Part shown: one piece after another, positions 495 to 7,712 of the stretch
How the letters are laid out: every line of letters begins with the position of its first letter
How positions within the stretch are numbered: position 1 is the first letter of the stretch
Assembly: GCA_902775835.1 (NCBI GenBank)
Contig: CACYNZ010000179.1
Coordinates: 1 to 7,712 of the forward strand
From: an uncultured Eubacteriales bacterium
GTDB lineage: Bacteria > Bacillota_A > Clostridia > Christensenellales > Aristaeellaceae
DNA length: 7,712 nucleotides
Reading direction: 5' to 3'
The notes under the pieces: generated by a model
The model's database searches: none
Seen by the model: the letters and a program-made list of their open reading frames with translations, nothing else
What the model was told of the DNA's origin: nothing
Translations under genes and position numbers: made by a program

Positions 495-1454
495 TCATAT
501 GAGCGTGTCTTCGCCCAGCCGGCTGGAAATGAAGTTTGCACCCACCAGCAGGACAATGGCGACGACGCTCTTGAACATGCCGGCTGCCGTGGCGACGCCG
601 ATGTTCAGTTTCTCTGTACCATACTGAAGCACGAAGATGTCGATGGTCCTTGACCAGTCGTCCACCAGTCCGCCGCCCAGCAGGTACTGGATCTCAAAGC
701 CGGCTTCCAGCAGATGTCCGATATTCATGATCAGCAGAATCACGAAGGTGGACTTGATGCCCGGAAGCGTGACATGCAGGATGCGCTGGAAGCGTCCCGC
801 ACCGTCAATGGATGCGGCTTCATAGAGACAGGGGTCAATGGCCGTCATGGCGGAAATATAGATAATGGTATTCCAGCCGACTTCCTTCCAGACATTGATG
901 ACGCCCACCAGCCACCAGAAATACTTGCCTTCGCCCAGCCAGAATACGGGTTCCTTCACCAGGCCCAGAGACAGCAGCATGCCGTTGACGGCACCGTTGC
1001 TGGCGAAAATGTTCTGCGCCATGCTGACAACGATAACCATGCTCAGGAAGTGGGGCAGGTAGGTGACGGTCTGCACGGTGCGCTTATAGGCGCGCTGCTT
1101 GACTTCGTTGAGCAGCACGGCAAGAAGGATGGAGGAGACGGTGCCAAAGACCAGGTTGATCAGGCTCATGGCCAGAGTGTTCCGGATGCTCTGAAAGAAG
1201 TCCGGGCGGCTGAACAGCCAACGGAAATTGTCCAGGCCGATCCACGGCGTGATGCCTTTTGCCACATTCTTTTTGTTGGTGAAGTCGCGGAAGGCATTGA
1301 TCCATCCCCACATGGGCACATAGTTGAACAGGAAAACATAGAGCAGCATGGGTACGGACATGGCCATGAGCTGCCACTGCTTTCCGAGCGTACGGAGCGT
1401 ACTGTGCTTCTTTCCATGGGAGAGGCCTGCCGCATTCTTTGTCATACTCGTCAT
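495..1454 (-). CDS. LplB-type carbohydrate ABC importer, permease subunit 1
   Basis: This 319-residue integral membrane protein forms one half of the channel of a type I sugar or oligosaccharide importer. About six membrane segments are visible, near residues 29-47, 92-115, 127-150, 180-200, 233-250 and 290-308. The cytoplasmic EAA loop that docks onto the ATPase is textbook: EAASIDGAGRFQRILHVTLP at 212-231. YLPHFLS (132-138) and the C-terminal SSRLGEDTLI are typical of the LplB branch of the family, and the length is normal, so the gene looks intact. The start at 1454 is set by AAGGAGG 9 nt upstream; the next Met, residue 4, would lie too far away. It sits downstream of the solute-binding protein gene, behind a terminator-like hairpin. 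The partner LplC/YtcP-type permease is not found next to it, and no ATPase is encoded here. The substrate cannot be read from the sequence. Confidence 0.95.
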   Translation of the reverse strand: MTSMTKNAAGLSHGKKHSTLRTLGKQWQLMAMSVPMLLYVFLFNYVPMWGWINAFRDFTNKKNVAKGITPWIGLDNFRWLFSRPDFFQSIRNTLAMSLINLVFGTVSSILLAVLLNEVKQRAYKRTVQTVTYLPHFLSMVIVVSMAQNIFASNGAVNGMLLSLGLVKEPVFWLGEGKYFWWLVGVINVWKEVGWNTIIYISAMTAIDPCLYEAASIDGAGRFQRILHVTLPGIKSTFVILLIMNIGHLLEAGFEIQYLLGGGLVDDWSRTIDIFVLQYGTEKLNIGVATAAGMFKSVVAIVLLVGANFISSRLGEDTLI

Positions 1455-1463
1455 ATCTTCAAG

Positions 1464-1470
1464 CCTCCTT
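1464..1470 (-). promoter_or_regulatory. Ribosome binding site of the permease, just after a terminator hairpin
   Basis: AAGGAGG stands 9 nt before the ATG at 1454. It begins only a few bases after the T-run of the hairpin at 1475-1509. Read-through transcripts therefore carry a strong hairpin directly in front of the permease ribosome binding site. Confidence 0.85.
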
Positions 1471-1474
1471 TGAG

Positions 1475-1509
1475 AAAAACCAGGGGAGTGAGACAGCTCA
1501 CTCCCCTGG
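1475..1509 (-). terminator. Intercistronic intrinsic terminator / attenuator
   Basis: Bases 1480-1492 (CCAGGGGAGTGAG) and 1497-1509 (CTCACTCCCCTGG) form a perfect 13-bp GC-rich stem with a 4-nt loop. On the minus strand the stem is followed at once by five T (1475-1479). The plus strand has no T-run, so the site acts leftward only. It lies between the solute-binding protein stop (1523) and the permease start (1454). The likely effect is partial termination and 3'-end protection of the upstream message, giving more binding protein than permease, a common ratio in importer operons (inference). The short T-run fits incomplete termination. Confidence 0.85.
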
Positions 1510-1522
1510 CCGGGTGATCAGA

Positions 1523-3190
1523 TCATTCACCGAGAACCTTCTGGACCTCAGCCAGCACAGCTTGCTGCATGTAATTACCGAACGCAGTGGCGGAAGGCGT
1601 GATTTCCTCGACGAAGGCATCCCACAGTCCGTCAAACTCGGCAGGATCGCACATGATCAGTTCAGGCAGGCGCTTGTCCTGGATGTTCAGGAAGTCAGTG
1701 TGCTCCACTTCCACAGGGTTGTAGTTGATCTGCCAGGCTTCGCCGTAGGGAGCCAGCTCGATGGGCGGGTTCACGAAATCGGCGAACTTGGAGAAGCCGT
1801 AGTGGGACAGGAAATCCTTGTCATAGTCGTTCATCAGACCGAGAACGATTTCAGGCTGGTTTGCGGGATCCCAGCAGTTGCCGGCATACTCGCCTTCCAG
1901 AATGTAGCCCTGCTTCTTGGGGCTGCTCTCGAAGAAGGCCAGAGCGCGGTTCTTCAGCTTCCAGGTGTTGTCGTTGCGCTGAGCATACTGCTCGTCGGTC
2001 ATCAGGAGACGGCCGTTTTCCACATAGTAATCTTCGCCTTCGATGCCCCAGTTGAAGATCAGCTGCCAGCGTTCAGACATCATTTCTTCCCACATGGCCA
2101 CGATGCGTTCCGGGCACTGGCAGTTCACGGAGATGCCGAAGCCGCGGCGGACATTGGGCAGGGAACCGTTCACATAGTGCTCTTCAATTTCCTTGCCGTC
2201 CACATACTCGGGATCATACACGAGACCCAGTGCGACGTAGGTGTTCTTGTCCATCTTGGCGTCCTTCAGGGCAGCGGTGGCGTTGCCGAAGTCCCAGGTC
2301 TGGTCGAACATGCCCAGGACGGTGCCGCTGGACAGGGCTGCGATGTACTGGTCATAGTTCATGACGAAGGTGTCGCGGCTGATGAGGCCCTTGTGGAATT
2401 CCTCATTCAGCTTCTTGTAATAGGGCTTTGCATAGGGCTTGTCGATGAACGTTTCGGTATGGTAATCGGGGGTGGAGACATCGATGAGCACTTCACCGTC
2501 GTTCGGACGGCCCATCAGGTGCTGCACGGGGTTGATCAGGCAGAAATGACGCCAGTCTTCGCAGAGGATGGAGAATCCGGTGTAGGGAGTGCCGTCCTCA
2601 TTGGTGGGATTTTCAGCCAGGAAGCGCTCGATCAGATCGAAGTACTCATTCAGAGTGTGGATCTGGGGATAGCCGGCCCAGGCCAGAACCTGCTTCTGCA
2701 CGAAGAAGGCAGGACCATTGACTTCGTTGACGATCTGGTCGCCGTCGGTCAGGCCGTAGTTGGGGATGATGTAGAGCACGTCATTGCCGTTCTCATCCTT
2801 CTCGATCAGACGGGCCTTCTGGGGCTCGATGTGTGCCCACAGCCGGGGGGTCTTTTCGGGGCTGATGTAGTCCAGCAGGTTGATCAGGGCGCCGCCGTCG
2901 ATGATCAGGTCAGCGCTGTTGCCGCCGTCGAACAGGTCCGGATAGTCCTGGCCGAAGATCTTCAGGCCCAGGGTTTCATCCAGGTTGCCTGCCAGGAATT
3001 CGAATTCGAACTTCACGCCGAACTCCTCTTCGATGAGCTTGTAGATCTTGTTGTCCTCAGCAGGCTGATCACCGGGATCGCCACGGAAGACGGTCAGAGT
3101 GATGGGATCCTGTGCACCTTCACCCAGTGCCATGGGCATCAGTGAAAGGATCATTGCAACTGCCAAAATCGTAGCCAACAGTTTCTTCAT
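1523..3190 (-). CDS. Extracellular solute-binding protein (family 1, LplA-like) of the carbohydrate importer
   Basis: This 555-residue exported protein captures a carbohydrate outside the cell and delivers it to the permease. It begins with a signal peptide: Lys2-Lys3, a hydrophobic core to about residue 19, and a likely signal peptidase I site A-L-G|E after residue 23. The mature start has the family pattern: TLTVFRGDPG, then DNKIYKLIEEEFGVKFEFEF and a YPDLF segment. Tyr, Trp and acidic residues are plentiful, as usual in sugar-binding clefts. The length matches LplA-type proteins. The start at 3190 is chosen because AAGGAGG lies 8 nt upstream and a signal peptide follows; the in-frame upstream ATG at 3286 lies about at the transcription start and its extra 32 residues are unlike a leader. 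Oddly, the signal region has no lipobox cysteine, so lipid anchoring is not expected. The substrate is unknown. Confidence 0.93.
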   Translation of the reverse strand: MKKLLATILAVAMILSLMPMALGEGAQDPITLTVFRGDPGDQPAEDNKIYKLIEEEFGVKFEFEFLAGNLDETLGLKIFGQDYPDLFDGGNSADLIIDGGALINLLDYISPEKTPRLWAHIEPQKARLIEKDENGNDVLYIIPNYGLTDGDQIVNEVNGPAFFVQKQVLAWAGYPQIHTLNEYFDLIERFLAENPTNEDGTPYTGFSILCEDWRHFCLINPVQHLMGRPNDGEVLIDVSTPDYHTETFIDKPYAKPYYKKLNEEFHKGLISRDTFVMNYDQYIAALSSGTVLGMFDQTWDFGNATAALKDAKMDKNTYVALGLVYDPEYVDGKEIEEHYVNGSLPNVRRGFGISVNCQCPERIVAMWEEMMSERWQLIFNWGIEGEDYYVENGRLLMTDEQYAQRNDNTWKLKNRALAFFESSPKKQGYILEGEYAGNCWDPANQPEIVLGLMNDYDKDFLSHYGFSKFADFVNPPIELAPYGEAWQINYNPVEVEHTDFLNIQDKRLPELIMCDPAEFDGLWDAFVEEITPSATAFGNYMQQAVLAEVQKVLGE

Positions 3191-3198
3191 GGAAACAT

Positions 3199-3205
3199 CC
3201 TCCTT
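3199..3205 (-). promoter_or_regulatory. Ribosome binding site fixing the binding-protein start
   Basis: AAGGAGG is 8 nt before the ATG at 3190. The competing upstream ATG at 3286 has no such site, so the signal-peptide start is preferred. Confidence 0.88.
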
Positions 3206-3215
3206 ATGAAGTTTT

Positions 3216-3294
3216 GAGCCATCATCGGGCTCGCTGACATTATTGTAAATGATCCAAAAATCGCAGGCAATGGGAAGCCCATTCACTCATTGCC
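3216..3294 (-). promoter_or_regulatory. Hairpin-forming 5' leader / possible operator of the importer operon
   Basis: Two inverted repeats lie between promoter and gene. GGCAATG (3266-3272) pairs with CATTGCC (3288-3294) across 15 nt and begins directly after the -10 box, at about the transcription start. GAGCC (3216-3220) pairs with GGCTC (3228-3232) across 7 nt, just before the ribosome binding site. The first could be a repressor operator or a stable 5' end of the transcript; the second is weak. No known riboswitch class was recognised. Confidence 0.45.
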
Positions 3295-3323
3295 ATATTA
3301 ATTCTCAAATTTTGTCATGTCAA
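3295..3323 (-). promoter_or_regulatory. Sigma-A promoter of the importer operon
   Basis: On the minus strand TTGACA (3318-3323) is separated by exactly 17 nt from TAATAT (3295-3300). That is a perfect -35 and a five-of-six -10 at ideal spacing. Transcription should begin near 3288, leaving a leader of about 100 nt before the ATG at 3190. No other promoter of comparable quality precedes the operon. Confidence 0.85.
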
Positions 3324-4137
3324 GTCACAAGGAACATCTCATAACAAACGAGAGACAAAAAATGCACTTACCCATGAAAAACACAGAAAATATCTGAAAA
3401 GGCCCAAAAGAAACCAGAACAGACAGAAATCAAACAGCGAATTTTCCATAGAATGTGGAGCAATTTAGAAAAAATATCAGAAATCAATGATGGATTGCTC
3501 AGCAATTGTTCAGTATGAATAGTGAGAAAAAACCGCATGAGATGGGCAGACTTGATTATATTTCTTCTCATTGATCTCAGGAAAAACGTATGCGAACTGC
3601 GTTATGAAAAATGGTATTCAATGATATGGTTCGAAAGGCGCGCTTTGTTCAAAGGGAACGCACGGATGGGAGAACCTGAGTAAATTGGTAAAGAAAAAAC
3701 TGAAGCTGCGCGGTAGGGCAGCGTTTTGAGAGACTACACCGGGGTGCAGGCGGCCTGGTAAAGCATTGAGCATACGAGGATGAAACTGTATGCAGTGCAG
3801 AGAATTCTGATTCTGTGACAAGAGAAGCATAAATTAGTTGTGCATTCAGCGTTGAAGTTGTGGGGCATAACTCAGCAATACTCGGAAAAGTAACATTTCT
3901 ATTTGGAAAACAGCTTGATGCGTTGGGTGTTTTATCTTCTGTAAGTTATTAAGTTCTGTATGGAGGGAAAATGATTTGGTAAATCTACGCCGTGACACAG
4001 AGGTGATTATTGGTAGCATGTAATAACAAATGTAAAGCTGTGTTCTTTATTATATGAAAGCAAAATCACGGGGTAAACTGTACCATATACATCGAAATTG
4101 TTTACAAATACGCATTATAAATAATCTCTTTTGGGAG
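3324..4137. other. AT-rich divergent intergenic region without a supported gene
   Basis: About 810 nt separate the two promoters. The only open frames are short minus-strand ones (67 codons at 3368-3571, 70 codons at 3618-3830). They lack convincing ribosome binding sites and family-like sequence. A 13-nt palindrome, ATTGCT-C-AGCAAT, lies at 3494-3506. A weak 5-bp hairpin at 3705-3722 is not a persuasive terminator. GGAGGG followed by ATG near 3970 leads to a stop after three codons. I see no tRNA, recognised riboswitch or transposon end. The region may hold unrecognised regulatory sites or an RNA gene, but nothing shows it. Confidence 0.6.
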
Positions 4138-4154
4138 TTTGCAAATATTGCAAA
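4138..4154. promoter_or_regulatory. Palindrome overlapping a -35 box, possible operator
   Basis: TTTGCAA (4138-4144) and TTGCAAA (4148-4154) are perfect inverted 7-mers separated by ATA. The right arm contains the proposed -35 hexamer of the surface-protein promoter. A dimeric repressor bound here would block polymerase. The arms are short and AT-rich, so chance is possible. Confidence 0.4.
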
Positions 4155-4175
4155 ACGATAACAAACCATTATAAT
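4148..4175 (+). promoter_or_regulatory. Probable promoter of the large surface-protein gene
   Basis: TTGCAA (4148-4153, four of six matches to TTGACA) is followed after 16 nt by a perfect TATAAT (4170-4175). Transcription would start near 4182 and give a leader of about 180 nt before the ATG at 4364. It is the best plus-strand candidate in the intergenic region. Confidence 0.6.
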
Positions 4176-4181
4176 TATAAA

Positions 4182-4363
4182 ATGCCATAGGTGTATCTGT
4201 TTGTTTTCATATGAGGAAGGTCAAGCCTGTGGATATGGGTATTTCTTTCTGCTGATGTAGTCCACACGTGCTATTTGGAAATCGTTGCGAGAAAGCGAAT
4301 GATTTCTAACTGCAGGGAACAGGAAAAGTGCATCAGGACGAGAACCGAAGAGATGAGAAAAAG
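4182..4363 (+). other. Long 5' leader of the surface-protein gene
   Basis: The leader is long for a simple promoter. It contains a 14-codon frame at 4211-4255 (starts MRKVKPVD, ends with TGA). Just before the main start there is a 4-codon frame at 4353-4367 (ATG AGA AAA AGA TGA), whose stop overlaps the main ATG. Either could be chance. No recognised riboswitch fold was found. Confidence 0.3.
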
Positions 4364-7300
4364 ATGAAGAATAGAAATTTGATTCCTGGGAAAAGGGACG
4401 GTAAGCGTCACGGTAACCGTGAAGCCAATGAATACCTGCGCAAGAGAAAGCTCAGGCATACCTGGGGCTGGATTTCTGCGTTTTTCGGCGTCGTGGTTGC
4501 CATTGCGATGTTTCAGTCTCTGAAAAAACCTGCCATTACTATGGAAGTCCAGACATGCCAGATGGAGGAGCATGTGCATACGGAAGCATGCTATGGATAT
4601 GATCACGAGGAAACCGTGCAGGAAACCATATCCGAACTGTATCTGGACTGTGCGTTTCAGCCGCATGTTCATACAGAGGATTGCCAGGATGGAAATGGCA
4701 GCCTGATCTGCGGATATGCGGAAGAATACATTCATGTTCATGATGATTTCTGCTATGTGGAGGACGAAAACGGGGAACGGCGGCTGGTCTGCGTGCTGAA
4801 CGAGCTTCCGGAACACGAACACACAGATGAGTGCTATACCCGGGTACTTGTGTGCGGACAGGAGGAAAATCCGGGGCATATTCATACGGATGAGTGCTAT
4901 ACAACTGAGTTTTTTCTGGATGAGGATCCTGTGTGTGGGCTGGAAGAAACGGACTGTCATGTACACAGCGAGGACTGCTATGCGGATGTGCTCGTATGCG
5001 AACTGGACCATGAGCATACCGACGCATGTTTTATAAAAATTCTGGAGTGCGGCATGGAGGAAGGTCAGAGCCATGTCCATACCCAGGAATGCTATCCGAG
5101 TATACGGAATCTTACTTGTGAACTGGAAGAAGCCGAAGGGCATGTGCATGATGATTCCTGCTGGGCAATGCTTCTGGACTGTCCTTGGGAGCATGTACAC
5201 ACCGAAGAGTGTTTTGACGAAAACGGACATGTGACTTGTGGGCATGTGGAAATTCTGCGGCATCAGCATACCGAGGAATGCTTCACGCCCAGAACAATCG
5301 TGGTGAAGGCTGGTCATGTGCACTCAGATACATGCGCAAAAGTGCTGATGTGCGGGAAAGAGGAACATGTGCATTCCAGTAGCTGCTTCTCTACAGTGGA
5401 GACAGTAAATTCCGAAAAGACTGCTGCAGAGGTATACGTATCCGATCAGGAAGTTATTGAGGAAAACATTGAAAATGACACAAGTGAACTGGAACAGCTG
5501 ACAGTTAACGAGATCGATGAAATCAGTGAATATGATCTGGTCCTGGAGACGGACGGCGAACAAATAGCAGATGATGGGACAGCAAATCTTCTTTTGGCAG
5601 ATGCCGTTTCTGAAGCTGGCGAAGCGGCGATTATACCGGATATTCTCGATGAGGAGTATATTCTGGTAGAAGAAGATCCCGACTGGGATGCTGCGTTTGT
5701 GGAGATGCAGGCTACGGATCATCAGGAAACAGCTTCTGGCAATAAAACAGAACATGGTCTGCGGAACGGTGAATCTTCAGAATTGCCGGATGAAAATGAG
5801 CTGAAAACAAAGGCAGAGGCATCGGAGGTCTCAGATGAAACATCTTTGAAATCCGACGAAGCCACCGTTGAAACCGATGACAATACCAGCAATGAAGCAG
5901 ACAATACAGACCAGAGTCTCATGGGGAGTAAACAGGCAGAAATATGGGTGGTTCCAGTTTGGGAAAACCGTCTTTTCGCTGTATTTGGACTGGATAATGA
6001 GCTGTCTGCGGACCGGATTCTTGAATCTGCAGATCGATCCGGAAATGAAATCGCTGAGCTCTGGACAGATTCCATTTCTCTGCAGGTACAGGATGATAAA
6101 GTGGTCTGCGTGTTTGCCTTCCGGACAGCGGTGATTCATATTCTGCTTGCTGACGGTACGGAGCTTCAGGTCGACTGCGCTTATGAAGAAACACCCCGTG
6201 AAGAAATCCAGAATGCATTTGCTTATGATCCTTATGAACTGGAAAATGGTGATGAAAAGGATTTAAGCGAAGAACCAGGCACACTGGCGCTGGCAGAGGA
6301 GATTGTGACTTCTGAAGAAAACGGTAATGAAGAGGAAGTAATCGAAACGCTGCTGGAAGAAGAAAACGGATTAACTGATGTTGAACAGGAAGCAGCAGAT
6401 GATGATTCTGAATCTGCTATTCTGAGTTCCGATGGGGAAGCAATCGAAACAGACGAAATGCCGGAGACGGATGATGCTGCAGACATTGAAGCTCTGGCCA
6501 GTGAGAAATCGGGAACAGAGCAGGAAGGACTGGCTGCAGATACTGAAGCGGGTCTGGCAACTGCTTCTGATCTTGAAGAAAGCATGCAGGGCGAAAATTA
6601 TGGAGTTGAGGAATCAAGCGAAGAAAGTCTGCAGGATGCCAGGGAATCGGCAGAAGAAGAATCGCTTCTTTCTGTTCATGAAATCAGCAGCACTGAAAAT
6701 AATGATGCACATGACTCGGACATTTTAGAAAAATCTGAAAAAGCAGGGACGCTGATTGACGCCCTGCTTGCCACGGATACAGATCTTATTGAAGAAGATG
6801 TTCAGGAAGTCAACAGCAGCGAAGATAGTGTTGTGGATGAGTGGACAGTTTCGCGGGAAGACGATGAAGCGTCGAAAGCCCAGGGGGACGCACTGCTTGC
6901 AACTGGTACAGATCTTACAGTAGAAGAGACTTCGGAAGAAGACATTGTTCTGGAAGGCAATGAAACAGAACTGGTGGAAGAACCATTGGATGAAGAAGTA
7001 ATGGCGGAAGCTGATCTTCTAGATGAAGCGTCGCTTACTTTTCAGGGGGAGGACTACCAAGTTGTTGTTTTTGGGGATGACGAAGCAGGAATCCCTGAAG
7101 GAAGCAGATTGGTTGTTTCAGAACTGACCGAAGCCGAAGCTGTAGAGGCGTACAAAGAAAAAATACTGGAAACCACCGGATATGGAACGGAGCAGATTTC
7201 CGTGCTTCGTCTTTTCGACTTGGAAATTCAGAATGAATATGGAGAAAAAATTGAACCGCTCAGCAAAGTTTCTGTTGTGATCAACATGAGTTCCGTGGCA

Positions 7301-7712
7301 AATACGGAAATGCATGTTATTCATTTTATACCTCAGGTGATCAATGAGGATACTGTCGGTCATGGTATTCAACTTATGGGAAGGCAGAAGCAACGTCAGC
7401 AACTTTATGCCAAACCCTCAGCGTTTGAATTGTCTGATGAGACAGCGCAGGTACTAGAAGCTGAAGTAACAGAGTTTGATGAACGTACCTGGGACATAAC
7501 CTTTGAAACAGAAGGGTTTTCTGTGTATGCGATTGTCGGAACTGTCATCGAGAAGTATGTACTGGCCAGCGATGGACGGAATTACAGGATAACGGCCACC
7601 TACGGCCCGGAAACCGGAGTTCCGGAAGACGCACAGCTGAAGGTTTCTGAAATACTGCCGCCGGAAAGCGATGAAACCATTGCCGGAAGCGAAGAGCCGC
7701 TTGATTCCTCTC
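4364..7712 (+). CDS. Giant Cys/His-repeat, acidic surface protein (C-terminus outside window)
   Basis: The frame is open for 1116 codons without interruption and continues past the right edge. Residues 1-33 are strongly basic (MKNRNLIPGKRDGKRHG...). Residues 34-52 form one hydrophobic segment, a signal or anchor, followed by PAITME at 56-61. I recall PAITME after the signal segment of many Firmicutes surface proteins. Residues 65-341 hold thirteen H-x-H-x3-C units. Residues 342-525 are acidic. Residues 526-608 look globular, with W-V-V-P-V-W and Cys582/Cys605. Residues 606-885 contain about 97 Asp/Glu and only 8 Lys/Arg. Residues 891-1059 form a beta-rich module ending GFSVYAIV, and a second copy starts at 1067. 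The start at 4364 is chosen because the basic tail and membrane segment follow; the ribosome binding site is weak, and an in-frame GTG at 4328 is an alternative. The role is unknown; adhesion, wall interaction or metal capture are guesses. No LPxTG-type anchor is visible before the window ends. Confidence 0.9.
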   Translation, partial: MKNRNLIPGKRDGKRHGNREANEYLRKRKLRHTWGWISAFFGVVVAIAMFQSLKKPAITMEVQTCQMEEHVHTEACYGYDHEETVQETISELYLDCAFQPHVHTEDCQDGNGSLICGYAEEYIHVHDDFCYVEDENGERRLVCVLNELPEHEHTDECYTRVLVCGQEENPGHIHTDECYTTEFFLDEDPVCGLEETDCHVHSEDCYADVLVCELDHEHTDACFIKILECGMEEGQSHVHTQECYPSIRNLTCELEEAEGHVHDDSCWAMLLDCPWEHVHTEECFDENGHVTCGHVEILRHQHTEECFTPRTIVVKAGHVHSDTCAKVLMCGKEEHVHSSSCFSTVETVNSEKTAAEVYVSDQEVIEENIENDTSELEQLTVNEIDEISEYDLVLETDGEQIADDGTANLLLADAVSEAGEAAIIPDILDEEYILVEEDPDWDAAFVEMQATDHQETASGNKTEHGLRNGESSELPDENELKTKAEASEVSDETSLKSDEATVETDDNTSNEADNTDQSLMGSKQAEIWVVPVWENRLFAVFGLDNELSADRILESADRSGNEIAELWTDSISLQVQDDKVVCVFAFRTAVIHILLADGTELQVDCAYEETPREEIQNAFAYDPYELENGDEKDLSEEPGTLALAEEIVTSEENGNEEEVIETLLEEENGLTDVEQEAADDDSESAILSSDGEAIETDEMPETDDAADIEALASEKSGTEQEGLAADTEAGLATASDLEESMQGENYGVEESSEESLQDARESAEEESLLSVHEISSTENNDAHDSDILEKSEKAGTLIDALLATDTDLIEEDVQEVNSSEDSVVDEWTVSREDDEASKAQGDALLATGTDLTVEETSEEDIVLEGNETELVEEPLDEEVMAEADLLDEASLTFQGEDYQVVVFGDDEAGIPEGSRLVVSELTEAEAVEAYKEKILETTGYGTEQISVLRLFDLEIQNEYGEKIEPLSKVSVVINMSSVANTEMHVIHFIPQVINEDTVGHGIQLMGRQKQRQQLYAKPSAFELSDETAQVLEAEVTEFDERTWDITFETEGFSVYAIVGTVIEKYVLASDGRNYRITATYGPETGVPEDAQLKVSEILPPESDETIAGSEEPLDSS
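4556..5386 (+). repeat. Array of thirteen C-x(4,5,8)-H-x-H-x3-C units in the surface protein
   Basis: The H-x-H-x3-C core occurs thirteen times without change in spacing: first His at residues 70, 101, 124, 151, 172, 199, 216, 237, 260, 277, 300, 318 and 335. Twelve units have an upstream Cys 4, 5 or 8 residues before the first His (C65, C96, C116, C143, C164, C191, C212, C229, C252, C273, C292, C330). In unit 12 the place is taken by V-V-K around 315. The residue after the last Cys is aromatic in eleven of thirteen units. The usual form is L-x-C-G-x-E-E-x-x-x-H-V-H-T-E-x-C-Y. Codons vary between units, so the repeat is old and kept by selection at protein level (inference). Confidence 0.93.
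6758..6916 (+). repeat. Direct repeat encoding DALLATxTDL in the acidic region
   Basis: Bases 6758-6787 and 6887-6916 match at 26 of 30 positions. They encode DALLATDTDL (residues 799-808) and DALLATGTDL (842-851), each followed by an E/V-rich stretch. The 43-residue period suggests the acidic region grew by duplication and then diverged. Confidence 0.7.
7034..7712 (+). repeat. Tandem C-terminal module, first copy complete, second cut by the window
   Basis: Residues 891-925 and 1067-1101 align without gaps: L-x-x-x-G-x-x-Y, then after a strand E-x-G-[IV]-P-E and L-x-V-S-E-[LI]. Copy 1 continues through L-R-L-F-D-L-E-I and I-E-P-L to W-D-I-T-F and GFSVYAIV (about 1052-1058). Copy 2 leaves the window after about 50 residues. 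From memory, modules of this style occur repeatedly in large Clostridia surface proteins. I cannot assign a Pfam family or a ligand. Confidence 0.7.

Follow-up and report, generated by a model that had tools for sequence, protein, structure and literature searches.

The stretch of DNA analysed here, hereafter the window, is 7,712 nucleotides long and corresponds to positions 1 to 7,712 of contig CACYNZ010000179.1 of an uncultured Eubacteriales bacterium. Its plus strand carries the gene of an exported protein, in which a hydrophobic segment is directly followed by thirteen short units with Cys and His in the order Cys-His-His-Cys (the CHHC array). In the list of open reading frames (ORFs), the frame beginning with ATG 4364 (or GTG 4328) stays open through the window end, and the window boundary precedes any C-terminal anchor of the array protein. 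The features of this gene are the following, the gap being that between the first Cys and the first His of a unit:

4364..7712, + strand: exported array protein, 1116 amino acids (aa) visible; frame open at the 3' end of the window; alternative start GTG 4328
4466..4522, + strand: hydrophobic segment aa 35-53, after a basic N-terminus and followed by a PAIT-type element; signal anchor or signal peptide
4556..5386, + strand: CHHC array, 13 units (motif counts, alignments)
4556..4591, + strand: unit 1, C65-H70-H72-C76, gap 4
4649..4684, + strand: unit 2, C96-H101-H103-C107, gap 4
4709..4753, + strand: unit 3, C116-H124-H126-C130, gap 7
4790..4834, + strand: unit 4, C143-H151-H153-C157, gap 7
4853..4897, + strand: unit 5, C164-H172-H174-C178, gap 7
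4934..4978, + strand: unit 6, C191-H199-H201-C205, gap 7, extra C198
4997..5029, + strand: unit 7, C212-H216-H218-C222, gap 3
5048..5092, + strand: unit 8, C229-H237-H239-C243, gap 7
5117..5161, + strand: unit 9, C252-H260-H262-C266, gap 7
5180..5212, + strand: unit 10, C273-H277-H279-C283, gap 3
5237..5281, + strand: unit 11, C292-H300-H302-C306, gap 7
5315..5335, + strand: unit 12, H318-H320-C324, lacking its own upstream Cys; the sole unit without a predicted turn in the window model
5351..5386, + strand: unit 13, C330-H335-H337-C341, gap 4
5387..7712, + strand: Asp/Glu-rich remainder of the array protein; no family match at or above cut-off; far less conserved than the array

A preliminary description, made from the letters of the window, had reported thirteen units with a fixed H-x-H-x3-C spacing, twelve of them with an upstream Cys, on a probable surface protein. 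These statements are borne out by the analysis. Every H-x-H of the visible protein is followed by x3-C (13/13 units), and the twelve upstream Cys are C65, 96, 116, 143, 164, 191, 212, 229, 252, 273, 292 and 330. Four conserved Cys/His ligands are therefore present in 12/13 units, with gaps of 3, 4 or 7 residues. As many as 26 of the 28 visible Cys lie inside the array, which spans from C65 (nt 4556) to C341 (nt 5386), matching to the base the coordinates given earlier. In unit 6, the regular ligand position is occupied by C191 and not by the extra C198, which is a Ser in P0001, the closest homologue among the matches listed. The array segment is strongly acidic (66 D/E vs 10 K/R in 285 residues). 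When it was shuffled 10,000 times, a mean of 0.24 and a maximum of three H-x-H-x3-C motifs were obtained, compared with the 13 real ones, which rules out a chance origin. The basic N-terminus and the hydrophobic stretch placed directly before the array fit a surface protein; the same layout is present in most of the array loci retrieved with a DNA pattern (see below). No LPxTG motif occurs in the visible 1116 aa, the C-terminus lying outside the window.

The conservation of the C and H positions across homologues had been named beforehand as a test of the array, and it is clear from both the alignments and the loss counts. The alignments were built with sequences hand-picked from 120 inspected homologues, i.e., 16 for a 17-sequence alignment, 47 for a 48-sequence alignment (used for a first structure prediction), and 39 for a second prediction. 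In both the 17- and the 48-sequence alignments, the only invariant columns of the array are Cys and His, even though not all the ligand columns are invariant in the former. The losses were counted over 225 array stretches, not deduplicated but with each site counted once; since arrays were located by the HxHx3C motif, degenerate units at their ends are under-counted. The 1617 distinct full sites (495 with gap 4 and 1122 with gap 7) are accompanied by 43 losses, distributed (gap 4 + gap 7) as 0+5 for the first His, 0+1 for the second His, and 5+32 for the last Cys. Judging from these counts, the His residues appear at least as constrained as the Cys in the units, which argues for a shared site rather than plain disulfides. 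In the 1980 units of the 120 proteins, the gap between the first Cys and the first His is mostly 7 (987 units) or 4 (494 units), and that between the last Cys and the first Cys of the next unit is mostly 8. A Cys is found no more than nine residues before the first HxH in 115/120 arrays, and within 14 residues after the last unit in 18/120 only. Arrays thus open with the first ligand and close with the last one, and the C-H-H-C set is therefore a closed unit.

The spread of the array was assessed in different ways. Using the whole visible protein as query, 2953 homologues were retrieved at E <= 0.001 among 7993 candidates scored. The best 120 of them, with a length 0.55 to 1.75 times that of the query, were inspected, and all (120/120) contain 11-30 units, in counts made with a regular expression that overlooks strongly degenerate units; most of these arrays begin near residue 55-62, behind a hydrophobic segment. 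A DNA pattern for E-E-H-x-H-T-[DE]-x-C-Y matched at least 119 stretches of species genomes. Among the 80 matches listed, the carriers are mainly Lachnospiraceae, Oscillospiraceae, Ruminococcus, and unnamed Clostridia, many with titles referring to rumen or gut, together with two Solobacterium, one Erysipelotrichaceae, and two Actinobacteria (L010, L076). At least two units in one frame are present at 117/119 matched loci listed, and none at L047 and L111; the array is N-terminal at most listed loci, the exceptions being frames cut at the locus edge plus L031 and L071, which have a later start. With the window array as query, and the seed genomes included in the counts, the genomes matched were 2/299 in the phylum of genome G001, 13/87 in the family of G001, and 27/150 in the family of genome G011 (from roe deer duodenum). 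As far as one query can tell, the distribution of the array is patchy.

The suggestion that this might be a widespread, undescribed module also stands, given the 2953 homologues, the presence of the array in all those inspected, and the lack of a family model. No Pfam or NCBIfam model reaches its cut-off over the array in the window protein or in seven homologues; NF047540 touches the array of P0010 only below cut-off (30.1 vs 50 bits). The lead offered by this model ('LIC_13241') was dropped after 0/5 genomes matched, a result that is no proof of absence because the control also matched nowhere. The array has no sequence match in PDB and no significant structural match in Foldseek, so that its identity with a known Pfam, NCBIfam, PDB, or Rfam entity was dismissed. 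In a literature scope that leaves out most subscription journals, six typical motif strings had no match, and topic searches did not find the array named; a term search in the text of a survey of fibrillar adhesins (PMC9210967) returned neither zinc, metal, and histidine nor Lachnospir. Metal-related repeats on surface proteins are a known kind, as are pilus tip proteins; an N-terminal tandem CHHC arm on such proteins is, within the searches made, new.

An origin as a phage or plasmid gene was likewise discarded, since the DNA pattern gave 0 matches in IMG/VR, no plasmid match was found, and a phage collection yielded one record. The latter (MT835974.1, L156) is an UNVERIFIED 'Bacteriophage sp.' scaffold of 14 kb without annotation, which matches the array protein and is perhaps a bacterial scaffold filed as phage. 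In some genomes, array genes form local families: many array frames lie on one contig (C4) of the Coriobacteriaceae genome of L076 (G008), and several, up to 4615 aa long, are found in the Blautia genome of L069 (G005). Several array frames also coexist in G011 (L152, L153, and L155). In L153, the array frame stops, and the next frame, of 973 aa, has an end that looks like an anchor; the two may be parts of one broken gene, or the break may stem from faulty assembly.

The comparison of close relatives revealed that the array and the rest of the protein change in different ways. Between the window protein and P0001, the array is identical at 268/284 positions (94%), and the two following regions at 100/210 (48%) and 114/224 (51%). 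Among the relatives, P0010, P0020, P0038, and P0065, which are 90-98% pairwise identical, harbor 30, 26, 23, and 23 units, respectively; in these proteins, the number of units changes while the remaining protein stays. An LPXTG-like motif (loose pattern) is present in the last 70 aa of 98/120 homologues. The rest of the homologous proteins varies, and in the seven that were scanned it includes SpaA, Cna_B, VWA with a GBS104-like Ig domain, fibro-slime, CHAP, papain-type peptidase with Big_2, and collagen-binding domains; the VWA and the GBS104-like tip Ig domain belong to P0010. By eye, a CHAP-like stretch lies between two CHHC blocks in a single frame of L048, where the arrays may flank an enzyme domain, and at L090 a (PTAEVTAE)n repeat of great length comes after the array, together with a second, small CHHC block.

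The analysis of the gene setting in relatives added a point that was absent from the earlier reading of the sequence, i.e., a pilus operon. At L141 and L147 the gene order is signal peptidase I, array protein, backbone pilin, sortase, minor pilin-type protein, and second sortase. The signal peptidase I model TIGR02227 scores 122.0 (L141) and 120.1 bits (L147), with a cut-off of 47. The backbone pilin matches PF16569 at both loci and NF033902 at L141 (127.5 bits, cut-off 95); the first sortase matches PF04203 at both loci and the class C model NF033745 at L141 (282.1 bits, cut-off 160); the minor pilin-type protein matches PF16555 at L141 and Cna_B at L147, and the second sortase PF04203. The NCBIfam scan covered six ORFs at L141 and two at L147. 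In the signal peptidases of L141, L147, and L139, a Ser lies within GSSM[TA]PT or GDSMTPT and a Lys within [VI]KR[VC]I; we take these to be the catalytic residues of signal peptidase I.

This context was then counted by phmmer with the proteins of L141 and L147 (both loci being included in the counts) over 131 distinct arrays left after the removal of duplicates. Out of 115 distinct loci with at least 700 nt upstream, 72 carry a signal peptidase I gene less than 1 kb upstream on the same strand, 70 of them within 150 nt. Downstream, where 26 distinct loci have at least 3 kb, a backbone pilin is found at 16, a class C-like sortase at 17, and either of them at 18; signal peptidase I, pilin, and sortase are all present at 11/22 loci with both flanks. 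The eight loci of the 26 with no downstream pilus genes are L137, L134, L060, L080, L117, L028, L054, and L016. At the level of genomes, a class C sortase over cut-off occurs in 22/27 array-bearing genomes of the G011 family vs 7/123 of the others (150 genomes; Fisher p 7e-16, uncorrected for kinship among genomes), and in 17/18 genomes chosen across the set for carrying arrays. In many relatives, the array gene is placed where a pilus tip protein or an ancillary pilin would be encoded.

Two AlphaFold2 runs gave a confident, regular mini-fold (pLDDT 85.9 and 82.0), in which a three-residue turn ending on the last Cys is predicted in 12/13 units of the window model and in 13/13 of the second one. 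The rule that a unit without the first Cys always loses this turn was rejected, being true for unit 12 of the window model and false in the second model.

The array can be compared with several known systems. The pilus tip proteins Cpa of group A Streptococcus (GAS), GBS104, RrgA, and SpaC occupy the same gene slot, seen whole at L141 and L147, and P0010 has VWA and the GBS104-like tip Ig domain; we know of no comparable array in any of the four. The available part of PMC7900414 mentions no such array. A homologue of signal peptidase I is the first gene in several, although not all, known pilus operons; in GAS SipA/LepA the conserved catalytic residues are absent (PMC7900414, available part), whereas the signal peptidases of L141, L147, and L139 keep Ser and Lys. 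The pneumococcal histidine triad proteins (Pht) and the corynebacterial ZnuE/F/G are likewise surface proteins with His motifs tied to zinc. No HxxHxH, the Pht motif, occurs in the visible window protein, which also lacks a Pfam match at or above cut-off, so that it is not assigned to Pht. The ZnuE/F/G motifs, HxD...HxH, lie about 150 aa apart (PMC12445094, available part), unlike those of the window array. The patterns CxxC, CCHC, and C2H2 are missing from the visible window protein. Zinc knuckles (CCHC) and C2H2 fingers are very short sites with four Cys/His ligands, from which the array differs in being exported, tandem, and of the order C-H-H-C, with no significant Foldseek match. As in the periscope proteins (SasG, Rib, Sgo_0707; PMC8201768, available part), the number of repeats differs between near-identical surface proteins among the array relatives. 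The periscope repeats are whole domains between the binding domain and the wall anchor, whereas the array consists of N-terminal Cys/His mini-units. The listerial InlJ, with its cysteine ladder, is likewise a Gram-positive surface protein with a repeated structural Cys motif, which is embedded in leucine-rich repeats, unlike the array (work cited in PMC9210967). InlJ is not known to have a His frame.

On the basis of these data, the array may be viewed as a row of minute domains, each clamped by a metal. Every C-x3-7-H-x-H-x3-C unit would coordinate a single ion, most likely Zn(II), through the thiolates of two Cys and the imidazoles of two His. The H-x-H pair would lie in an extended stretch, the last Cys would complete a helix of one turn, and the link to the following unit would be a beta strand or hairpin. 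With no hydrophobic core present, and in the anoxic gut, the metal would take over the role that disulfides play elsewhere, and the chain might form an N-terminal arm of exported proteins that is stiff, acidic, and resistant to proteases. The invariance of H-x-H within its Cys frame makes Zn-type sites the simplest reading. That a metal of some kind is bound is probable; that the array is a structural arm built on zinc is moderately so.

A linked signal peptidase I, where present, suggests that the signal segment is cleaved. If so, and if the C-terminus is joined by sortase, it follows that the array would be outermost, C-terminal anchoring putting the arm farthest from the cell. In many relatives, the protein would be the tip of a pilus assembled by sortase, and the operon would provide a signal peptidase I of its own. 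The array would then be less the stalk for a binding head than the head itself, i.e., a multivalent or reach-setting arm; if the segment stays uncleaved, the array would be placed at the membrane. The number of units might shift by recombination, tuning reach or valency. In our opinion, the best explanation, and one somewhat more probable than not, is an exported arm of variable length, made of zinc-clamped CHHC beads, that would form the outer end of surface proteins and pili in gut anaerobes.

The preliminary description had left metal ions and disulfides side by side. The metal is favoured over the disulfides because the two His are the most constrained residues, VKOR is found in 0/18 genomes chosen for carrying arrays, and 15/18 are without DsbA; many of these 18 are metagenome-assembled genomes and may be incomplete, and in the controls the VKOR and DsbA searches were positive in 3/14 and 8/14 named genomes, respectively. 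For the host of the window, disulfides keep some probability, since a DsbA-family protein exists in G001, G011, and G496, and the last two hold the two loci nearest the window, which raises the odds of disulfides and lowers those of the zinc-clamped arm.

Two other explanations stand on the same level, both of them unlikely. According to the first, the array would capture or store metal at the surface, binding zinc or another ion outside the cell and passing it on or withholding it, as has been proposed for streptococcal Pht and corynebacterial ZnuF/ZnuG. The twelve four-ligand sets of the window protein, the up to 30 HxHx3C units of relatives, and the acidity of the segment are all in keeping with this possibility. 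A gene for a PF00496 solute-binding protein (13626-15605, + strand) lies directly after the free-standing array gene of L137, and this family takes peptides and, in some members, nickel. Surface zinc proteins with HxD/HxH motifs do exist (ZnuE/F/G; PMC12445094, available part). However, among the neighbours that were searched, sortase, pilin, and signal peptidase genes are the commonest, and those of the window are sugar-type transport genes. The array also occurs in fusion with domains of the adhesin, collagen-binding, or peptidase type. Moreover, from one family to another the order of the first units and their individual features are retained, which would be unexpected in a mere sponge.

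The second explanation, whose chances are just as low, is that, outside the cell, each unit is stapled by a disulfide between its two Cys, with the His serving for a pH response or ligand contact. Each unit does offer two Cys, their number is even in 156/225 array stretches, and some Clostridia have working VKOR or DsbA proteins and make disulfides (PMC12453122, available part); the DsbA-positive genomes mentioned above point in the same direction. Such staples agree poorly with 6 losses of His vs 37 of the last Cys and 144 units lacking the first Cys, besides the scarcity of VKOR and DsbA in genomes that are possibly incomplete. Less probable still is a cofactor other than zinc (Cu, Ni, Fe, or Fe-S) in the CHHC sites: C2H2 sites accept several soft or borderline metals, but two Cys and two His close in sequence are the usual structural zinc set. 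The least probable alternative, which has hardly any chance of being right, is a thiol adhesive in which reduced Cys at the tip, kept reactive by the His, would exchange with mucin disulfides and hold the cell to mucus: the N-terminal position on LPXTG-type proteins, the rumen or gut titles of many carriers among the matches listed, and the low VKOR/DsbA content are in line with it, but it has no direct support and leaves the fixed H-x-H-x3-C frame unexplained.

Several observations weigh against the zinc-clamped arm or its pilus setting. The first Cys (within 12 residues) is missing in 144/2112 HxHx3C sites. In the predicted structures pTM is low (0.46 and 0.49), and a stiff rod is unsupported by the models; one unit without the first Cys keeps its turn in the second model, so that the predicted turn is independent of the four ligands, and the clustering of the four side chains within a unit is putative. 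A stalk normally separates the binding domain from the anchor, and the array is at the far end, so that 'stalk' may be the wrong word. No upstream signal peptidase I is found at 43/115 loci, and L134 and L137 have no pilus genes in the available flanks, the next gene downstream at L134 encoding an SNF2-type helicase. The window gene itself has no signal peptidase gene upstream, as no + strand ORF of at least 60 aa occurs in nt 3287-4327, about 1 kb between divergent genes. A signal peptidase is likewise lacking at L022 and L123, the two loci nearest the window when the first 346 residues are compared; the third, L059, has one. The window copy is either a member of a free-standing group, close to the pilus-linked array proteins, or linked to such genes downstream, beyond the window. 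The pilus link rests on the loci of the relatives and not on the window's own gene.

The module has no family model, and the surface proteins that bear it are numerous (2953 homologues, of which 120 were inspected); many of the carriers are of rumen or gut origin. Should it be the N-terminal end of proteins anchored by sortase, it would be placed where cells first meet mucus, food particles, and each other; if it holds zinc, it would represent a new, disulfide-free way to build extracellular arms, and the colonisation by gut Clostridia might be tied to luminal zinc, which is set by diet and host calprotectin. In a more daring and rather doubtful extension, many gut and rumen Clostridia, with some Coriobacteria and Erysipelotrichia, would make sortase pili and giant surface proteins tipped by a zinc-knuckle arm of 2 to about 30 CHHC beads, which would replace disulfides in the anoxic niche and be matured by its own signal peptidase I; adhesion might then depend on free luminal zinc, and the tip might be folded or unfolded by host zinc withholding or dietary zinc. 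The array is also a sequence tag for pilus operons in genomes whose pili are unstudied.

The remaining part of the window, upstream of the array gene, contains the following features:

495-3286, - strand: sugar-type ATP-binding cassette (ABC) transporter set, permease (PF00528) plus 587-aa exported protein; divergent from the array gene
1-498, - strand: frame of 166 aa that runs off the window edge, without a Pfam match

No Rfam family reaches its gathering score in the window. The 587-aa exported protein has no Pfam match and reads like the solute-binding lipoprotein of the adjoining permease. The region 3287-4327 is possibly a long regulatory region or a decayed gene. Within the array protein, two stretches without a family match, downstream of the array, resemble small domains when viewed by eye: one, at 6104-6185, surrounds the two outlying Cys (aa 582 and 605), and the other, at 7040-7560, resembles a recurring 'FSVYAIV' surface domain.

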